From a virus, in IMG/VR virus record IMGVR_UViG_3300026484_000244, positions 1-40,038 of that record: 40,038 bases of DNA, one strand, 5' to 3'. Every line of letters starts with the position of its first letter. Positions within the stretch are counted from its first letter, which is position 1. The position numbers and the translations under genes were made by a program. Below, one piece after another: positions 6,538 through 34,814 of the stretch. The notes beneath the pieces are model-generated. The model ran no database searches. It had not been told where the DNA came from and saw nothing but the letters and a program-made list of their open reading frames with translations.

Positions 6538-6644
6538 ATAAATTAAGATTTAGCTTGTATGTTGTTAGTACATTTGTTGGTTCATATTGGGTTGTGAATG
6601 ATTTATATAAAAAATATAAATATCATTCACAATCAAAATTTTAA
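6534..6644 (+). CDS. Very small single-TM protein
   Basis: This 36-residue reading frame starts within the stop of the nuclease gene (ATGA overlap) and has AAAGGA upstream. Residues 6-22 (FSLYVVSTFVGSYWVV) form one likely membrane helix, followed by a basic, tyrosine-rich tail. It is the last gene of the rightward arm. Its TAA overlaps the TAA of the leftward giant gene in a shared TTAA. Function unknown. Confidence 0.5.
   Translation: MNKLRFSLYVVSTFVGSYWVVNDLYKKYKYHSQSKF
6641..6644. other. Convergent stop codons sharing TTAA
   Basis: TTAA gives TAA on the + strand (6642-6644) and TAA on the - strand (6641-6643). The two transcription arms of the genome meet here with no intergenic base and no hairpin between them. 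Read-through antisense transcription into both arms is likely unless termination lies within the genes. Confidence 0.85.
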
Positions 6645-9600
6645 TACACTGTTAAACCCATTAACGCCAGTGGTGTTTCTTTCCCACTGGCAACTCTTTC
6701 TAAAATCAGTGCATTATTTGATACAATCATTTGTGGTTGAGGATTACCTTGTAGCAATTTAAATATCGTTGAACCTGCCAAAAACTTATCATCTATTAAC
6801 CCTCTTTGATATTCCCAACTTGCTGTTCTTATTCCACCTATGTCGTTTTGAGAATTACCTGCAATTTCATGAGCAATTATCATTGATGCTAAGATTGATG
6901 ACATTGTTACTGGTTTATCTTTATATAGCTTCATTATATTTATTGAATTTCTATACATAAAGCCAATAAAAGGCAAACCATAATTGTCTAGTTCATTTAT
7001 TATTTTAGGATATGTTCTTCTAAAATCCACAAAAGCTTCATTTGTTATTCTTGATGCTTCTCGTGGCTCATAGCCTTTCTCGATTAAACTTCTATATAAA
7101 GAGCCTCTTCCCACTAAGTCTGCAAAATTCATGGCTTGTATTGACTTTACAGAGATGTCATTTAAGAAGTTTTCTATTTTTTCTATATGTTCATTGTTCT
7201 TCGCTTTATTGTCTGCTATCATTATATTAAATATTGTTTCGATATTGCCATTCTTTTTTTCATTTTTCATCAAATATGCGTCTGCTAATGTTTGTATTGC
7301 TCCTTGCTCATGAAGTTGTGCAAACACATTATTTTGTTTCAATGCTTGTATTCTTTCTTTTATTTTACTTATAGTTTTCTCTTTTATTTTTGTATCTTTG
7401 ATGTTTCTTAATGTTATTATATCTGTTTTTATGTCATCAATTGCCTTAAAGAACACCTTGTAGTCACTTATTGTTTTTGATATGTTTTTGCCTATTTGAG
7501 TTGGTTTTACACCATGAGCAACTAATACTGATGGAACCACTGCGAGGTTGTTAACTATTGATTTTACATTGTATATTGTGACATTCTTTTTTAGTGACCT
7601 TATTAAGTTTTTATATCCTTTTTCTATTACTCTGGCTACAACTTGATTTTCCTTGCTAAACATAAACTCATGTTGTGCTGTAAGTATATTCTTGAATGCT
7701 TTATCAACATGTGTTATGTTGGAACCGCTTTGCCTAAATGCTTTAATTTCTGCTTTTGATAATTTTACATATTTATGGCTATTTCTTTCTGTAATTTTAT
7801 CTTCACTGACAAATATATTACCAATATCTTCTTGGATTTTATCTGCAAGTTTTTTGTTTAATGCATTTATTTTGAGTGAGGAAAACTGTGAAGCCATATT
7901 CTCTATGACATCATTACTTCTATTCATAATATCAATATCAAAGTCTTTGCTAAAAAATACCTTTATTCCTATAATGTCGCCTTTGCTGTCAAATATTCTT
8001 GCGGGTTCAATTCCAGATTTATTTAGATATTTTATTTTTGATTTCAATCTCTCTATTTCTTTTTTTGTTTTATTTTTTATCATATAGGTGGTTCCAAGAA
8101 TAGAGTCTTGTTGAAATTCCAATATGTTGTTCTCTATGTTTGCCCTAGTATCAAGCTTATATATGAATGGTGTATTTTTGTATCTTTTAAATCCAGTAGG
8201 CACTTTTCCATTAAAGCTAATTGCTGAAACAACATTATTCTTTGCAACAAAAGAATCATATCCTCGTATGTAATCGCTCCCCAGCTCCTCTTTTTCTATT
8301 TCTTTTATCAACGATATAATATCTCTATCTATGGTACTTGTGTCAAATATATCTAACTCTTTTATCTTGAGCATGTTTTCTTTTTTTACAACTTCAGCAT
8401 CAAGGATATCACTTATTGCTTTTATTGCTTCTTCTTTGCTTATATCTTTTAATAGTTTTTTAGCAACAAAGAAGTTGTATATTTCATATTCATTTTTAAA
8501 ATAATATTTGGAATTTGTTGGTTCTGTCGAATCTCTGAAAACTTTCTTTGCAAATTCAATTTTTGTGTCTTTGAGTAGTTTTCTCATGTTGCTGTTTTGG
8601 TTTTTCACAAGCTCTTTTAATTTATCTTTTATTTTCGTATTTCCACCGAGGTCTGCAATGCTGTTTATTTTTTTTAGCTTCATCATAATTTCATTATATT
8701 TTTCTTTTCCTAGTGCTTTTCTTGCAGGTGATGTTTTAAGGTTTTTTATTATTGTATTATTTATATTTTTTATAGAAGTCAAGTATTTATGTTTTGTTGC
8801 AAATATATTTCTTATTTTTTTATATACTTCTTTTTGTGAGTGTCCAATAAGTATGTCATTTTTAATTTGAGAAGCAATTGCACTTGAGTCTATTGCTTGT
8901 GTTATTTTTCTAATATTAGCTTTTTTAAATATGCTTCCAAGCAAATCTTCTATTTTGCTAGCAATAACAGTGTCTGCATCTTCTAGCTTTTCAAGCATAA
9001 TGTCAAGCAGTTGTGGTTCCATAAGTCTATTCAGCAACTTTCCTGTTGTTTTTATACTATCGTAATACGCGGGATATATTGTGTTTTCATATATATCTTT
9101 TAGCTCACTATTGTTTTTTTCAAATAGCTCTATGATGTTTTCTGCATTTGATATAAATTCTTTTGTCATGTGTTCATTTATTTTTTTATCTTTTGCAATA
9201 TCAAGCATAAGCCTAAAGCTAGAATATGTAGCCAGTGCTTCTTCTTGCTTTATGTATTCATTGAAGTCCTTATATGCAGTATTTATGCTATCTGGTATGA
9301 CTATATTTTTTATTTTTTCCTTTAATATACTGTTGTTTTTTTCATATATGTGAACCAACTCATGTGCCAAGATTAATAACTCATTTTCAAAGCCAAGTCC
9401 TCCATTTTCTGTAAATTCGCTCATAAATATTTTGTTGTTTTTTTTGTTCACAAACCCAAAATCAATTTTTCCAGTTATAGGGTTTATTCTGCCTATTTCA
9501 ACTTTTGGTTCAATAAGTGTATTTTTATTTTTTGGTTTTGGCAATGTATTCAGAATATCTTTAAATTTTGTTTTCATATATATTATTGATTTTTGTACTT

Positions 9601-11872
9601 TTGTTTTGATTGTTTTTTTAGTATTATCAATATTGTTTTTTTTCTTTTTTTCTGTTGTTTTCTGTGTATTTCTATGTTCTGTTTTATTTTTTGTAGTTTT
9701 TGTTTCGTTTTTCTTTTTATCTGTTTTTCTTGCCTCTTCTTTTATTTCAGAGATTAACACTTCTGCTTTCTCTTTATCAATGCTTTTTTCTTTTGTCTTC
9801 AAGTTTTCTTTTTTTTGTTTTTCTATAATTTCTGTTTTATCTGTTTTTTTATACCACTTCTTTCTAACAGAATCTAAAGCTTCTCCTCTGTTCTCCACAA
9901 TATCTAATTGCTTATTATAGTGTTCTATTTCTTTGTTAATTGCGTCTTCTTTGATTCTCTCATATATTTTACTGTCTGACGATAATAGCTCTTTTAACAA
10001 CTTGTCTGTTTCAAGCATTACCCTACCTGACTCAATATCAAAATTCTTCATATCTATTGGTTTGCCAGATACTGTATGCGTGTTTCTTTCAATTTTTTCA
10101 TTAAAATCAAAATCAAATTTTTTCAATAATCTATTTCTGTATTTTATATATTCTTCAAATATTTCTACTTTTTTGTTTTTATCTTTTGTTTTATTGTACA
10201 TATTCCTTAATTTTTCAATATCTGCAATATGTTGTTTTTGTGTTTTATATGCAAACTCTATATTATTTATTTTATCAACATCATTTTCTTTTTTGTAAAA
10301 TTCAAGCATTTTGTTTTTTGCATTTTTGATATCATCTGCGTATGCCCCAAGCCTACTATTCACTGCTCCTATTTTTTCAAACAATCTTTGTTTAAAGTTG
10401 TTTATTTTATTTTCGTTTTTTTCTCTAAAATCTATATCATTTAGTTTTTTATCTTCTTTGTATATTTCACTTATAACATCTTGAGCTTTGTTCATTTCAG
10501 ATATTAGTTCTGCATCACTCATCTCATTCCATTTTTTCTTTGAGTCTGTCAATGCAGAATATAAATCAAGAGCCACATAATCTTTCCCATCAAGCTTTTC
10601 GCCACTAGCTATTTTATCAATTACTGTATTCATTGTAGCTACGGCTTCACTTTCATTCATGTAATATCTAAATTTATCAATATCGCTTATAATTGCTTTT
10701 GTATGGTCGGATAGCTTCTTGTGGTTCAGCATATTTAAAATGTCATCTTCCCTTGTTGCAACTTCATCAAGCACTCTATATTCGTTCCCTGTTTTGTTCA
10801 TGTTTTCGGAGTGTGTTAATTCGTGTTCTATGATTATTCTTTGTTGCTCTGGTGTTTTATTTTTAAAGTTTTCCCCCACTATAATAATCTTTGAATCTTT
10901 TAATGCTCCTGCATCAACTCCATCTATACCTGATATTGCATCTTCTGGAACCACGAATGCATTGTTTTCGCCTATACTTTTGTCTTCTTTGAGTATTATA
11001 TTATCTTTTGATAATGACTTTGTTTTTCCATCTACAACCTCAACTGAATCATTAAATATATCACTTATGTTTACTGGTTCTCCACCAGAAAGTTTTTCTT
11101 TTAAATTCTTTTCAGCAAGTTTTGCAGTATCAATTATATCAAAGTCATAGTAATCTCTTGTTTCATTATATGGTTCTGCTTCTATAAAATTGTCAATATT
11201 GTCTTTATGTATCCTGATGTCATTTATGTTTTCATTATTTTCAGTTTGTATTTTTTCTCCAAAAGGTGACTCTTCGATTATCTTTTTTGTTTTATTTATT
11301 CCTAGTTCTGTTGTTTTCTTTGCTATATTTTTTAATTTATTTGCATGTTTAACTGCAAGTAGTGGTGTTTCTAGTCCAACCGATAATAGAGTGTTATCAA
11401 CAAATGAGTCATATGTCTGTTTTGGGTCTATGTTCGTAAATTTGTTTTCTCCAGCTTTTGAACCAAGCATTTCTGGAGAACCTGTTGCTGTAAATATTGC
11501 ATTGTCTGCAAGTAGTCTGCCACCATAGTTTAATCCTCGTGTGGCTCTAAGAAGCGGAGAAGCCCCTAGCCCTGCTCCAAGCAAAGAACCTAATTCTTGA
11601 GCAAGTGTAGGCTCTCCTGATGGTGTTTGTGTGTGCTGTTCTTTTCTTAATTCTTCATATCTTCCACTTGTCATCTCATTGTATGATGGAGCATCAAATG
11701 GCATTGTAGCAATATCATAGCCTGTTTTTACTGCGTCCTCCAACCCAAGCAAGGTGCTGTCTGCGAATTGTTTTACTCCATGCACTGTTGGAGAGTTACT
11801 ATAATTGTTTATTTTCGCTATTGACTCATCTCTATTTTTTGTATTTAATTTTGCAAGTTTGGCTATATCCAT
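6641..11872 (-). CDS. Giant internal virion (ejection) protein with two HExxH motifs
   Basis: This 1743-residue protein is the largest gene and the last of the leftward arm. The N-terminal 130 residues have small hydrophobic Gly/Ala-rich stretches. HELTH lies at residues 350-354 with a downstream DEVATRED, and HELVH at 837-841 with QEEALATYSS. Each fits a gluzincin-type zinc peptidase (HExxH...E). A Lys/Thr-rich coiled linker separates the two domains, and the last 150 residues hold a hydrophobic stretch. It follows 135 and 692 residue proteins, the small-medium-giant layout of T7 gp14-15-16, so it probably enters the cell with the DNA. The HExxH pair suggests cleavage of host proteins or peptidoglycan stems. 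The metallopeptidase reading rests on motifs only. Confidence 0.65.
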   Translation of the reverse strand: MDIAKLAKLNTKNRDESIAKINNYSNSPTVHGVKQFADSTLLGLEDAVKTGYDIATMPFDAPSYNEMTSGRYEELRKEQHTQTPSGEPTLAQELGSLLGAGLGASPLLRATRGLNYGGRLLADNAIFTATGSPEMLGSKAGENKFTNIDPKQTYDSFVDNTLLSVGLETPLLAVKHANKLKNIAKKTTELGINKTKKIIEESPFGEKIQTENNENINDIRIHKDNIDNFIEAEPYNETRDYYDFDIIDTAKLAEKNLKEKLSGGEPVNISDIFNDSVEVVDGKTKSLSKDNIILKEDKSIGENNAFVVPEDAISGIDGVDAGALKDSKIIIVGENFKNKTPEQQRIIIEHELTHSENMNKTGNEYRVLDEVATREDDILNMLNHKKLSDHTKAIISDIDKFRYYMNESEAVATMNTVIDKIASGEKLDGKDYVALDLYSALTDSKKKWNEMSDAELISEMNKAQDVISEIYKEDKKLNDIDFREKNENKINNFKQRLFEKIGAVNSRLGAYADDIKNAKNKMLEFYKKENDVDKINNIEFAYKTQKQHIADIEKLRNMYNKTKDKNKKVEIFEEYIKYRNRLLKKFDFDFNEKIERNTHTVSGKPIDMKNFDIESGRVMLETDKLLKELLSSDSKIYERIKEDAINKEIEHYNKQLDIVENRGEALDSVRKKWYKKTDKTEIIEKQKKENLKTKEKSIDKEKAEVLISEIKEEARKTDKKKNETKTTKNKTEHRNTQKTTEKKKKNNIDNTKKTIKTKVQKSIIYMKTKFKDILNTLPKPKNKNTLIEPKVEIGRINPITGKIDFGFVNKKNNKIFMSEFTENGGLGFENELLILAHELVHIYEKNNSILKEKIKNIVIPDSINTAYKDFNEYIKQEEALATYSSFRLMLDIAKDKKINEHMTKEFISNAENIIELFEKNNSELKDIYENTIYPAYYDSIKTTGKLLNRLMEPQLLDIMLEKLEDADTVIASKIEDLLGSIFKKANIRKITQAIDSSAIASQIKNDILIGHSQKEVYKKIRNIFATKHKYLTSIKNINNTIIKNLKTSPARKALGKEKYNEIMMKLKKINSIADLGGNTKIKDKLKELVKNQNSNMRKLLKDTKIEFAKKVFRDSTEPTNSKYYFKNEYEIYNFFVAKKLLKDISKEEAIKAISDILDAEVVKKENMLKIKELDIFDTSTIDRDIISLIKEIEKEELGSDYIRGYDSFVAKNNVVSAISFNGKVPTGFKRYKNTPFIYKLDTRANIENNILEFQQDSILGTTYMIKNKTKKEIERLKSKIKYLNKSGIEPARIFDSKGDIIGIKVFFSKDFDIDIMNRSNDVIENMASQFSSLKINALNKKLADKIQEDIGNIFVSEDKITERNSHKYVKLSKAEIKAFRQSGSNITHVDKAFKNILTAQHEFMFSKENQVVARVIEKGYKNLIRSLKKNVTIYNVKSIVNNLAVVPSVLVAHGVKPTQIGKNISKTISDYKVFFKAIDDIKTDIITLRNIKDTKIKEKTISKIKERIQALKQNNVFAQLHEQGAIQTLADAYLMKNEKKNGNIETIFNIMIADNKAKNNEHIEKIENFLNDISVKSIQAMNFADLVGRGSLYRSLIEKGYEPREASRITNEAFVDFRRTYPKIINELDNYGLPFIGFMYRNSINIMKLYKDKPVTMSSILASMIIAHEIAGNSQNDIGGIRTASWEYQRGLIDDKFLAGSTIFKLLQGNPQPQMIVSNNALILERVASGKETPLALMGLTVY

Positions 11873-11882
11873 AATGCTTTAC

Positions 11883-13961
11883 CTATTTAGATTTTTCTAC
11901 TATATATGAAATAATGTAGGATAACAATTTACCTTGTGATTCTGTTTTGTTTATACTTAAATCTTCTCCGCTTTCTCCTGATATTAATTCGCCTGGACTT
12001 GGGATATCCTTGTTGCTCGAAACTCCATTGTAAATCGTATCAAGCACGGCTTCATCGCTAATATCTAAAGATGGGTCATTGTAGTATTCTTTCAATGCTT
12101 CTTTTGCTAAATTTATAACCTTTGGATTTGTGGCATATTCAATTCTATCTTCATTTGAAGTGAAAAATGGAGTTGTCATTTTGTTGTCTATTAGTTCGCT
12201 TTCTGGGTTTACCTGACTTCTTAATTCTTCACCAAACTGTGCAAGAGCATTTTCCATGCTGTCGGCATACATTCTTTCTTTTGAGTTGCCACTGTATTTT
12301 AATTCTGTTAAGTTTTTGAATATGTTTGTAATTGTTTCAAAAGCTCCCTGCTTATCATTATATGTTTTTGGTGCAGAGAAGTACGCTTCGCCTATTTTAT
12401 CATCTAGTTTTTTTATTGCATAATTATATTGCTTTTTGTCTATATCTCCTGCACTATATAATTTATCAAGCTTTGTTTTTTCTATATCTCTTAGAACCAC
12501 AGGAGAGTAGTATTTGTCGTTTTCTCTTATTGATGGTTCAGTATCGAAAGCTGAATCGGTTACACCTCTATTTTTAATTGCATAATCCAAGCCACTTATT
12601 TTATCTTCTATTACTTTATTAAAGTCTATATTTGCATTGACATCAACGGGTAGTCCATATTTTTTTAATTCTTCAGCATTTTTGTTTGATGCAAATGCAT
12701 ATAGGCTATCATTCATATTTTTATACTTATCATACTTTTCTGCGTACATTTCAACCTTTGGTGCCTCTTTGCCAAACACATATCCAATATTGCCTACAAC
12801 ATCTTTTATGTTTTTATCTTTGTTGCTTTTAAATACATTGCTTATAACTGCCTTTTTGAATTCTGGATTTTCTTGTGAGAAAAGCTGAATATCCCTATCT
12901 GAAAGGCTATAATTGTCTAAAAAGTTTTTTGTTGTTTTTGCATCAAATCTTTTTATCCTCTCTATATTGTTCTTTGTTGGAACAAATTGTTTTTTAGTTT
13001 GTTGAGTTGGTTGGTTGGTGGTTTCACTTGATGCTGGTATGCTTTTATTTAATACTGGCATGTTGTTTGCTGTATTGTTGTTTCTTTTTAACGCCTCTTC
13101 TTTGCCACCTAGCATTCCTCGATACTCATCTTCAAGCAATGAAATTGTGTTTAGTTGTTTTGTTGCTGATTCTTTTTGGCTGTCGTCAATTGTTGTATTT
13201 ATTGTATTTAACAAATTTGATTTTTCAAGTTCTAAACTTTTTATTGCATTAAGTATTTTTAGTTTTTCTAATGTGCTTTGTTTTGTGGTTCTGCTATCTA
13301 GTAATTGTTTTTGTTTTTTTATATTTGCATCTGTTCTATAATCTATAAGTTTTTCACTATCTTCTAATTTATCATTTCTGTTTTTTTCATACAACAATGA
13401 TTTATTTTTATTGCTATATGCAGTATTTAGTAGTTCACTTTGAAGTTCTGGCATTATTGAGCCTTTTGCAAGTATAGATTCACGCTCAACACTATTTAGG
13501 TCATTTATGTCGGCTATGCCATCGTTATTTTTATCTCCAACATTATCTATATAGCCTAAAATTGTATTTTTTTGCTCATTCAATAAACCATTATTTTGGT
13601 TCAACAATTCATTGTTTTTCATTTTTGCAATATTGCTTCTCGTTTTCATAAATTTATCAAATACAGAACCTGCCATTGATGGGTCAACATAACTATCGTA
13701 GTTATTCTGTATATCATAAACACTTTTATCATTATCAAGAAGCATTGAATTATAGTTTTCTTTTAATCCTAAGCCGCCTTTTTTAAAACTTGACAACATG
13801 CCATTGTTTTTAAGATAATCTTCATATCTTTTTTTTTCATCTTCTGCTTTATTGCTTGAAAGTAGGCTTAGCCCACCCTTGACAGAGCCTACGATATCCT
13901 GTAATGCTTTATTTTTATTGTTTAGTGCTGACGCTATTAAGTTACTATATACCAATGACAT
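11883..13961 (-). CDS. Internal virion protein with EF-hand-type loop
   Basis: This 692-residue, mostly helical, Asn/Lys/Ser-rich protein ends ten bases before the giant protein gene starts. Near residues 143-154 is DKNNDGIADIND, which matches a calcium-binding EF-hand/dockerin loop (D-x-N-x-D-G-x-x-D-x-x-D). Long coiled-coil stretches follow (about residues 200-290). Size and place match the middle ejection protein (gp15-like) of a T7-style core. No sequence family is recognised. The calcium loop suggests that folding or assembly is sensitive to calcium. Confidence 0.6.
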   Translation of the reverse strand: MSLVYSNLIASALNNKNKALQDIVGSVKGGLSLLSSNKAEDEKKRYEDYLKNNGMLSSFKKGGLGLKENYNSMLLDNDKSVYDIQNNYDSYVDPSMAGSVFDKFMKTRSNIAKMKNNELLNQNNGLLNEQKNTILGYIDNVGDKNNDGIADINDLNSVERESILAKGSIMPELQSELLNTAYSNKNKSLLYEKNRNDKLEDSEKLIDYRTDANIKKQKQLLDSRTTKQSTLEKLKILNAIKSLELEKSNLLNTINTTIDDSQKESATKQLNTISLLEDEYRGMLGGKEEALKRNNNTANNMPVLNKSIPASSETTNQPTQQTKKQFVPTKNNIERIKRFDAKTTKNFLDNYSLSDRDIQLFSQENPEFKKAVISNVFKSNKDKNIKDVVGNIGYVFGKEAPKVEMYAEKYDKYKNMNDSLYAFASNKNAEELKKYGLPVDVNANIDFNKVIEDKISGLDYAIKNRGVTDSAFDTEPSIRENDKYYSPVVLRDIEKTKLDKLYSAGDIDKKQYNYAIKKLDDKIGEAYFSAPKTYNDKQGAFETITNIFKNLTELKYSGNSKERMYADSMENALAQFGEELRSQVNPESELIDNKMTTPFFTSNEDRIEYATNPKVINLAKEALKEYYNDPSLDISDEAVLDTIYNGVSSNKDIPSPGELISGESGEDLSINKTESQGKLLSYIISYIVEKSK

Positions 13962-32671: not shown

Positions 32672-33259
32672 ATGAAAAAAGATAAGAAATATGAACTAAT
32701 ACCATTAGAAAAAGGACACAAATTCTATGGTACAGGTGTTAACTATCAAATTAGAGCGTTAAAGGATTTTGCTAATGTAAACAAGGGAGATTTAGGAGGG
32801 TATGTAAATAATGAGTACAATCTAAGTCAAGAAGGAAATTGTTGGTTATATGATAATGCAAGAATGTATAATAATACAAGAATGTATGATAATGCAAGAA
32901 TGTACAATTATGCAAGAATGTACAATTATACAAAAATGTATGATAATGCAAGAATGTACAATTATGCAGCGATGTACAACGATGCAAAAATGTATGATAA
33001 TGCAAAATTATATACTATGTTATATGGTACACTATTCTCATCTATAGTTTTAAAATATCAAAAAGACATTAAAGTAATCTCTCACATAGGTTCAGAGGAT
33101 GGCGTATTAACTCTAGTTAGGTTTAATAATGTTATTTATGCTAACAGAGGATGTTTTTATGGCACTCTGGAAGAGTTAATTGAAAAAGCTAAAAAAGAAG
33201 ATAATAAACACTATAAAAATATAGAACAAATAGCAAAATTGTTATTTGAGGAGGATTAA
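32672..33259 (+). CDS. Hexapeptide-repeat (beta-helix) phage protein
   Basis: This 195-residue protein has an N-terminal KGDLGGYVNNEYNLSQEGNCW segment. About nine six-residue repeats of the type YDNARM/YNYARM follow (residues about 58-112), and then a globular C-terminal part. Repeats like these form a left-handed beta-helix. The same 'GdLGGyv..e.NLSqeGncWvydnA' design occurs in many phage proteins of unknown function. The repeats are visible in DNA as 18-base units at 32847-33006. Its ribosome site is GGGAG and it abuts the next gene. Confidence 0.7.
   Translation: MKKDKKYELIPLEKGHKFYGTGVNYQIRALKDFANVNKGDLGGYVNNEYNLSQEGNCWLYDNARMYNNTRMYDNARMYNYARMYNYTKMYDNARMYNYAAMYNDAKMYDNAKLYTMLYGTLFSSIVLKYQKDIKVISHIGSEDGVLTLVRFNNVIYANRGCFYGTLEELIEKAKKEDNKHYKNIEQIAKLLFEED
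32847..33006. repeat. 18-bp tandem repeats inside the hexapeptide-repeat gene
   Basis: About nine units of an 18-base pattern (AATGCAAGAATGTATGAT and variants) encode the hexapeptides. They leave open reading frames on the opposite strand that are not genes. The number of units may vary between isolates by slippage. Confidence 0.75.
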
Positions 33260-33616
33260 ATGCAAGTTAAATTATTACATCATACCCCTTTATGGGTAGC
33301 TGATAAAGCAATAGGCAAGTGCTGGGATAAGCCAAGTATAGATACTACTGTAAATGTAGAGAGGATAGAGCGAGTAGCTAACAAAAATAAACACTCTTCA
33401 ACTATTGAGCATTTAGTTATGGTATGGATTATAGAAGATAACGACCTAATACAAATATTCAAAGAAAACCCGTTTTCTCAAGTAAGCAATGTTAATAGTA
33501 AAATTATAGTATCATCAAATGCTAGAGCGTTACAAAATTTAGATTTAAGCAAAGATATTTTGAAGTTATTAAGTCCAAAAGAATATAGGTTTTTGTTTGG
33601 TCTGATTGAACATTGA
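33260..33616 (+). CDS. ThyX-like protein lacking the RHRxxS motif
   Basis: This 118-residue protein resembles the ends, but not the middle, of flavin-dependent thymidylate synthase. MQVKLLHHTPLWVADKAIGKCW, RVANKNKHSSTIEH (residues 39-51) and SNARALQNLDL ... EYRFLF match the N- and C-terminal parts of the Campylobacterota ThyX family. The segment with the RHRxxS dUMP/FAD motif is absent, replaced by a short stretch (residues 52-80). By itself it should not be a full enzyme. A second ThyX-like gene with the RHRxxS segment lies 700 bases downstream. The ribosome site is GAGGAGG. Confidence 0.65.
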   Translation: MQVKLLHHTPLWVADKAIGKCWDKPSIDTTVNVERIERVANKNKHSSTIEHLVMVWIIEDNDLIQIFKENPFSQVSNVNSKIIVSSNARALQNLDLSKDILKLLSPKEYRFLFGLIEH

Positions 33617-33623
33617 TGTTTAT

Positions 33624-33634
33624 TATGATATAAT
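33624..33634 (+). promoter_or_regulatory. Extended -10 promoter before the HNH gene
   Basis: TATGATATAAT lies in the 54-base gap before the HNH-type gene, which suggests that the endonuclease is transcribed on its own. That is common for homing endonuclease genes. Confidence 0.6.
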
Positions 33635-33670
33635 ATATTTATAAAATAATTAAACAATCAGGAGTTATAT

Positions 33671-34318
33671 ATGTCTTTAACGATAGTAAAAGATTTAGGA
33701 ATGAGAAGAGAAAAAGGATGCACAAGAAGGTGGTGTATAGCAAAGTGTTCATATTGTGGTAAAGAAAGTGAACACAGAACACAATCATTAAAAACAAAAA
33801 AGAGTTGTGGTTGTGCTACTTTTTTAAAAGCAAAAGTAAAACATGGTATGGCAGGAACTAGACAATATCAAATATGGTCTGATATGAAAGATAGATGCTC
33901 TAACCCTAACAACAAATCATATGTTAGATATGGCGGAAGAGGAATTACCTATGACAAGAAGTGGGAAATTTTTGAAGGTTTTTGGGAAGATATGGCTAAT
34001 GGATACACAGATGAAATGACCATAGAAAGATTAGATAACAACAAAGGATATACAAAAGAGAATTGTATATGGATACCAATACAAGAACAAGCTAAGAATA
34101 GACATGCTATCAATACTTTTAAAAAAAGAAAACCTTCTAGTTATGCTAGAAAAATTACATTAGAAGATATAAGACCTTTTGGAGAAAAATATAAGACAGC
34201 TAAAAAATTTGAAAAAGGAAAAATAATGCTAGAAGTAGTTAAAACATTAGGTATAACAAAAAACACAGCTAAGATTTACTTAGCTAAATATGTAAAAGGG
34301 ACATTGTATGCAAGTTAA
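33671..34318 (+). CDS. HNH-type (AP2-like) homing endonuclease
   Basis: This 215-residue protein has an N-terminal cysteine cluster (CSYCGKE ... SCGC). It then has the standard pattern of phage HNH/AP2-like mobile endonucleases: YQIWSDMKDRCSNPNNKSY, YGGRGITYDKKW, F.gFwedM and MTIERLDNNKGYTKENCIW. The last 60 residues contain a helix-turn-helix-like segment (VVKTLGITKNTAKIYLAKY) for target binding. It has its own promoter and lies between the two ThyX-like genes; its end overlaps the second one by 11 bases. Freestanding homing genes often sit in or next to nucleotide-metabolism genes such as thyX. Confidence 0.8.
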   Translation: MSLTIVKDLGMRREKGCTRRWCIAKCSYCGKESEHRTQSLKTKKSCGCATFLKAKVKHGMAGTRQYQIWSDMKDRCSNPNNKSYVRYGGRGITYDKKWEIFEGFWEDMANGYTDEMTIERLDNNKGYTKENCIWIPIQEQAKNRHAINTFKKRKPSSYARKITLEDIRPFGEKYKTAKKFEKGKIMLEVVKTLGITKNTAKIYLAKYVKGTLYAS

Positions 34319-34814
34319 TTTATTGCACTACACAAATCTTGAACCAAGCGAATACACTGAACATTTATACTATAACTTTGATATAGATGGAATATCAAGA
34401 GCTTGTTTACAAGAATTAGCAAGGCATAGGATAGCTAGTTTAAGTGTTAAATCCACAAGATATACTCTAAAAGAGCTAAAAGAAGCTCCTTATACAACAG
34501 AGGGTATTATGAAATTTTTAAAACAGATAGATAGAGATATAGATAATAGTAATTTTAATCAATTATGTATGCTAAGAGAAAGATTAAAGTTAGGTTTGTC
34601 AAATGATATAGCTAAATATTGTCTTCCAGAAGCATATAAAACGAGTTTAGTATGGAGCATAAATGCTCGCTCATTACAAAACTTCTTAGCTCTTAGAACT
34701 TCTAAATCAGCACTTCGGGAAATAAGAGAATTGGCTTATAAGATTTATGAGCAAATACCTGAAGACCATAAGTTCTTGTTTAAAGATTTTATTTATAAAG
34801 AAAAGGAGAAATAA
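34308..34814 (+). CDS. thyX: Flavin-dependent thymidylate synthase, N-terminally shortened
   Basis: This 168-residue protein has the ThyX signature ARHRIASLSVKSTRYT (RHRxxS at residues 39-44) and the C-terminal NARSLQNFLALRTSKSAL with EHKFLF-like end. ThyX makes dTMP from dUMP using FAD and methylene-tetrahydrofolate. Here RHRxxS comes about 38 residues earlier than in family members of 205-230 residues, because the part carrying the His of the HxxxxEH region is missing. The N-terminus, MQVNLLHYT, still matches the start of the ThyX-like gene at 33260. Either it works as is, it pairs with that protein, or both are remnants. The start overlaps the HNH gene end. Confidence 0.75.
   Translation: MQVNLLHYTNLEPSEYTEHLYYNFDIDGISRACLQELARHRIASLSVKSTRYTLKELKEAPYTTEGIMKFLKQIDRDIDNSNFNQLCMLRERLKLGLSNDIAKYCLPEAYKTSLVWSINARSLQNFLALRTSKSALREIRELAYKIYEQIPEDHKFLFKDFIYKEKEK

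Follow-up and report, generated by a model that had tools for sequence, protein, structure and literature searches.

Reciprocally reduced ThyX genes suggest a two-part thymidylate synthase in phages

Results

A ThyX gene pair flanking an HNH gene

The DNA analysed here, called the window in the following, is a stretch of 40,038 nucleotides that makes up the whole record IMGVR_UViG_3300026484_000244. It is part of the genome of an N4-like (Schitoviridae) phage, with a terminase about 50% identical to that of Vibrio phage phi 1 and relatives. Three genes lie next to each other on the same strand, ORF1 (118 aa), an HNH endonuclease gene (215 aa) and ORF2 (168 aa) (Table 1). ORF1 starts right after the stop codon of the upstream gene and is preceded by a strong ribosome-binding site, and the start of ORF2 overlaps the end of the HNH gene by 11 nucleotides. 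At this base composition an open frame of 118 codons has a chance of about 1e-4.

Table 1. Features of the ThyX locus and other genes of the window
Position	Strand	Feature	Remarks
6641-13961	-	Adjacent genes of 1743 aa and 692 aa	No Pfam or PHROG match
32672-33259		Gene just upstream of ORF1	(A/T)RMY(D/N)N-type repeat, like a beta-solenoid; PHROGs 7964 and 5070, of unknown function
33248-33254	+	Ribosome-binding site of ORF1	GAGGAGG
33260-33616	+	ORF1, putative ThyX B-type subunit	118 aa; predicted four-stranded ThyX core with HSSTIEH and NAR, without RHR and SVKSxRY
33392-33412	+	HSSTIEH motif of ORF1	Residues 45-51; His = T. maritima H53, second Ser = H. pylori S50 (PMC6514825, PMC11940539)
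33416-33616	+	ORF1 tail	Residues 53-118; homologous to the tails of the ORF1-types of L095 and L082
33518-33526	+	N-A-R of ORF1	Residues 87-89; R = H. pylori R165
33671-34318	+	Free-standing HNH homing endonuclease gene	215 aa; PHROG 374, E 6.6e-43
34308-34814	+	ORF2, putative ThyX A/C-type subunit	168 aa; RHR, SVKSTRY and R174 kept, first His and Ser of HxSTxEH lost
34308-34334	+	Duplicated ThyX first strand of ORF2, MQVNLLHYT	First 11 nt overlap the end of the HNH gene
34422-34439	+	RHRIAS motif of ORF2	Residues 39-44
34443-34463	+	SVKSTRY motif of ORF2	Residues 46-52, dUMP side
34662-34670	+	N-A-R of ORF2	Residues 119-121; kept here, lost in L095 and L082

ORF2 corresponds to ThyX from the EH of HxSTxEH to the C-terminus (residues 18-168; Pfam Thy1 E 1e-34; 63% identity to the phage ThyX of L002; numbers with L denote the compared records), preceded by a short copy of the ThyX first strand. 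It scores well above the curated cut-offs for ThyX (Thy1, PF02511, 120.3 versus 24.8 bits; TIGR02170, 120.4 versus 87.9) and has the ThyX fold. ORF1 residues 1-59 match the N-terminus of full-length phage ThyX (71% identity to L053, and 80-81% over the head to the nearest). They are followed by a tail of 66 residues with a NAR strand and a PKEYRFLF end, which looks like ThyX with its RHR chemistry and central helical bundle removed. By sequence ORF1 stays below the cut-offs (Thy1 16.1 versus 24.8 bits; TIGR02170 14.6 versus 87.9). A weak hit of ORF1 to PHROG 26962 is not shared by the related proteins described below.

To obtain a structure prediction for ORF1 we used AlphaFold with an alignment that supplied only N-terminal halves of ThyX plus the ORF1-type proteins. 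The resulting model was confident (pLDDT 91.2, pTM 0.80) and showed four strands and flanking helices. Its best matches in the PDB were those of H. pylori ThyX (3n3y/3ah5, E about 5e-6, TM 0.77 by query length), thus ORF1 is predicted to be a compact protein with a ThyX fold.

An earlier note, made from the sequence alone, had described two complementary partial ThyX genes around a homing endonuclease, and this observation is confirmed, with all three genes at the positions given there. One detail had to be corrected: the note had the second gene lacking the N-terminal section with the HxxxxEH histidine, but ORF2 still contains the E and the second H of HxSTxEH (residues 18-19), and what it lacks is the first H (T. 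maritima H53, H. pylori H48) and the Ser (S50). The shared start MQV(K/N)LLH(H/Y)T, which the note had described as alike also in DNA, is identical in 21 of 27 nucleotides.

The pair is present in two other phages

Scans of viral contigs returned two further cases of the pair. L095 (IMG/VR 3300026484_000107, 34.6 kb) contains an ORF1-type gene (146 aa) directly overlapping an ORF2-type gene, without an HNH gene between them. L082 (IMG/VR 3300017977_000066, 154.9 kb) contains a single ORF of 343 aa made of an ORF1-type and an ORF2-type part, and since the identical sequence is present in a second metagenome (L083, 8324 of 8324 bases), it is unlikely to be an assembly accident. A decayed extra copy of the RHR segment lies right downstream of the fused gene (L082 4955-5152), a trace of tandem duplication. 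In both phages a strand like MQVNLLHYT also starts the second part of the pair.

The tails of the three ORF1-types match one another far beyond shuffled sequence (z 10-15, 0 of 5000 shuffles) and better than they match any ThyX, suggesting one origin. However, the head of ORF1 from the window is closer to ordinary ThyX than to the other ORF1-types, and the trees of the heads and of the ORF2-type parts are poorly resolved and do not unite the three, so recombination or more than one origin is possible.

Only three lineages of the pair are known, all from uncultured phages. Single-protein scans returned no close relatives of ORF1 or of the HNH protein, and no sister phage without the HNH gene was found. 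Searches of genome contigs and of plasmids gave no match. Among cultured phages only the N-termini of full-length Campylobacter phage ThyX match ORF1, and nothing matches ORF1 of L095. For L082 and L095 no further close relatives were found beyond themselves.

Both members of the pair are under selective constraint. Between the three phages, which share about 40-49% identity, the frames are open and dN is about 0.25-0.42 of dS for both genes, with high dS, and the head of ORF1 from the window has a short end branch (0.12 against a median of 0.36). No ThyA and no separate full-length ThyX was found in the records of the window, L082 and L095, although these may be incomplete, so that a full-length ThyX elsewhere in the phage is not excluded. 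Partial genes next to a selfish endonuclease are often decaying remains, and the decayed segment in L082 would fit this view. That ORF1 and ORF2 are remains of a thyX destroyed by the HNH insertion is nevertheless very unlikely, since the open frames, the selective constraint, the invariant active-site residues, the ribosome-binding site and the confident predicted fold argue against it.

Active-site residues are divided between the two genes

In published structures the active site of ThyX is assigned to three chains (PMC6514825, H. pylori numbering; the primary report on the three-monomer site is Leduc 2004): RHR 74-76 and R174 come from chain A, S50 and R165 from chain B, and R66, V82, S84, R86 and Y87 from chain C. 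H53 of T. maritima (= H48) is located on a helix of a third monomer (PMC11940539). In 75 full-length relatives, H48, S50, N163, R165, RHR and R174 are present in all, but since this set had been chosen to contain RH(R/H), only the other counts are free of selection.

All three ORF2-types keep every A and C residue and lack H48 and S50, with P and E in their place in ORF2 of the window. The ORF2-types of L095 and L082 also lack N163 and R165, whereas ORF2 of the window still has its own NAR, so that the partition is incomplete there. The ORF1-types keep HxSTIEH, with its H, S, E and H, and N-x-R as invariant positions, have KEN (ORF1 of the window), RDN or IND where RHR should be, and contain neither SVKSxRY nor R174. 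Of the residues assigned to the three chains in PMC6514825, they keep only those supplied by chain B. Each gene has thus kept what the other has lost, the dividing line is the known chain-to-chain division of the active site, and ORF1 and ORF2 together contain the full set of A, B and C residues.

The HNH gene and the intron search

The HNH protein has an HNH domain of the phage type, and 942 phage records contain relatives of it. In L095 the stop codon of ORF1 is located in the same place relative to the start of ORF2 (inside ATGxAxGTTAA) as the HNH stop codon is in the window, with the same overlap of 11 nucleotides. L095 can be regarded as the uninvaded arrangement, and the simplest reading is that the HNH gene entered at the 3´ end of ORF1 in a phage that already had the pair.

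A group I intron with an HNH gene is present in thyX of the N4-like phage pVa5 (PMC5746245), which raises the possibility that in the window, too, a self-splicing intron joins two exons into a normal ThyX. An Rfam search of the region and of the whole window returned no intron match, while the same search detected the pVa5 intron at E 7e-26, and the ORF1 tail is a protein sequence shared with two other phages. In addition, thyX of pVa5 has no duplicated or reciprocally reduced parts. We therefore consider splicing very unlikely.

ThyX genes are a repeated target of such elements. In L075 (3001-4270), L077 (3006-4309) and L108 (4001-5088), otherwise ordinary phage thyX genes are split in the same loop (after YTLKELK) by three different HNH genes, and in L075 the HNH end overlaps the start of the second thyX piece by 11 nucleotides (ATGCAGATTAG), as in the window. 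Two further unusual ThyX proteins were detected. L072 (3929-4318) encodes a ThyX of 129 aa that keeps the first 28 residues and the C-terminal part but lacks everything between, with no partner found in its record. L182 (3001-3576) encodes a full-length ThyX-like protein with most active-site motifs degraded (RH for EH, RHK for RHR, NAQ for NAR), and no second ThyX was found in its record.

Discussion

The comparison of three phages suggests that ORF1 and ORF2 are the two subunits of one flavin-dependent thymidylate synthase (dUMP to dTMP), an interpretation in which we are fairly confident. In this view, the enzyme is an obligate heteromer, and a duplication of thyX was followed by reciprocal loss. 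One copy (ORF1) kept the four-stranded core, the folate-loop helix, the His and Ser of HxSTxEH and the N-x-R, and lost the RHR chemistry and the helical bundle between strands 3 and 4. The other copy (ORF2) kept the RHR helix, SVKSxRY and R174, and lost the segment with the His and Ser. The genes, their homology, the reciprocal residue pattern, the recurrence in three phages, the confident predicted fold of ORF1 and the selective constraint are established by our analysis, whereas the physical assembly, its stoichiometry, FAD binding, dTMP synthesis, the order of events and homing by the HNH endonuclease are inferred.

In known ThyX each site takes the Ser/R165 side from one subunit and the RHR and dUMP sides from two others. 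An ORF1:ORF2 oligomer would most simply, and probably, be a 2+2 assembly. Assuming 222 symmetry of the ThyX tetramer, only one 2+2 arrangement would give complete sites, with the ORF2 chains as A and C and the ORF1 chains as B and D, resulting in two complete and two dead sites. The fused L082 protein could form the same assembly as a dimer. A model of the fused chain was weak (pLDDT 62, pTM 0.44). It was based on an alignment of five rows, since alignments with many ThyX rows placed the ORF1-type tails in wrong columns. The 2+2 assembly is an inference from the published residue roles.

The earlier note had proposed that a heteromer of the two proteins could restore a site and that the split may have arisen by duplication and reciprocal loss after homing invasion, and this interpretation is only partly supported. 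The two genes are reciprocal ThyX remnants, which fits a heteromer that rebuilds an inter-subunit active site, but a homing invasion as the cause of the split is not supported, because the pair is found without HNH in L095 and fused in L082. Of the findings that the note had named as speaking against its reading, stop-codon decay in relatives was not seen, and the ORF1-types did lose part of the active site (the A and C residues) but have kept the B-site residues as invariants.

It might also be possible that ORF2 is a shortened but self-sufficient ThyX and that ORF1 is a regulator, a stabiliser or another side product with no share in the active site. ORF2 alone passes the ThyX models and in the window keeps all A and C residues plus NAR. 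This explanation seems unlikely, since all ORF2-types lack the His and Ser kept by 75 of 75 relatives and two also lack N163 and R165, since the ORF1-types keep exactly those residues, which a mere regulator would not need, and since the fusion in L082 ties the two parts together.

Also unlikely is a split monomer, in which the first half of ORF1 and ORF2 dock as two pieces of one ThyX chain, as in enzymes cut by a homing endonuclease, and the extra strands are leftovers. ORF1 residues 1-52 and ORF2 residues 18-168 add up to one complete ThyX, and L075, L077 and L108 show plain HNH cuts of thyX. However, the two genes are not the non-overlapping pieces that follow from one cut, since strand 1 as well as strands 2-4 are present on both. 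ORF1 has its own strands 2-4 and N-x-R, and ORF2 its own strand 1, kept in three phages. In L095 and L082 R165 is lost from ORF2 and kept in ORF1, which fits a separate B subunit better, and the pair exists without any HNH gene.

Known ThyX (H. pylori 3AH5/3N3Y, T. maritima TM0449, M. tuberculosis 2AF6) is made of four identical subunits (PMC6514825). ORF1 and ORF2 share its fold and active-site residues and, if assembled, would have the same three-chain site, but residues carried there by one chain are divided over two proteins. No heteromeric ThyX was found in the literature searched, which left out most subscription journals. The nearest principle is the heterotrimeric PPCDC of yeast (Hal3/Vhs3 and Cab3), in which paralogues of a homo-oligomeric enzyme each hold a part of an interface active site (PMC4978486). 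It is another enzyme with another fold, and point losses are found there but losses of whole segments here. Two-polypeptide phage enzymes of nucleotide or DNA metabolism beside a homing endonuclease are the split nrdA with mobE of Aeh1 and the split gene 43 with seg43 of phage 25, and for gene 43 the endonuclease may have invaded an already split gene (PMC2988022). In these cases one chain is cut in two, whereas here two overlapping reduced copies are present, each with its own core strands.

The best viral structural match of ORF1 was a 346-aa ThyX of Brevibacillus phage Jenst. It matches M. tuberculosis ThyX in two pieces with about 150 residues between, an N-terminal piece with GHLSI and a C-terminal piece with RH and SQRYV. 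The layout is conserved at about 41-45% identity in Bacillus phage EZ-2018a, and the ThyX proteins of both phages (L212 5789-6829, minus strand, and L213 201-1250) look like a two-domain ThyX with the His/Ser side in the N-terminal part and the RH/SQRYV side in the C-terminal part. These proteins belong to another ThyX subfamily, the R190-equivalent stays on the C-terminal part, and a sequence link of the N-terminal part of Jenst to ORF1 was tested and is not significant. Similarly compact structural matches were obtained for crAss-like ThyX of 311-334 aa. The Jenst protein may be a second, convergent two-part ThyX. That some phages use an obligate heteromeric ThyX in two-gene, fused and HNH-invaded forms, with only two of four active sites left, and that a similar two-part ThyX arose separately in Jenst-like phages, is somewhat more likely than not.

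N4-like kin carry one giant virion RNA polymerase (10 kb in pVa5), and the adjacent genes of 1743 aa and 692 aa in the window could be a divergent or divided form of it.

ThyX is described as an obligate homotetramer and is an antibacterial drug target. A natural heteromer that separates the FAD/folate side from the RHR/dUMP side would let each side of the site be altered on one chain at a time, which makes half-of-sites behaviour and the role of H53 in gating directly testable. It would also be a clear case of subfunctionalisation drawn along an inter-subunit active site, seen in two-gene, fused and endonuclease-invaded states, and it means that single-gene annotation will miss such enzymes, since ORF1 falls below every curated ThyX cut-off.
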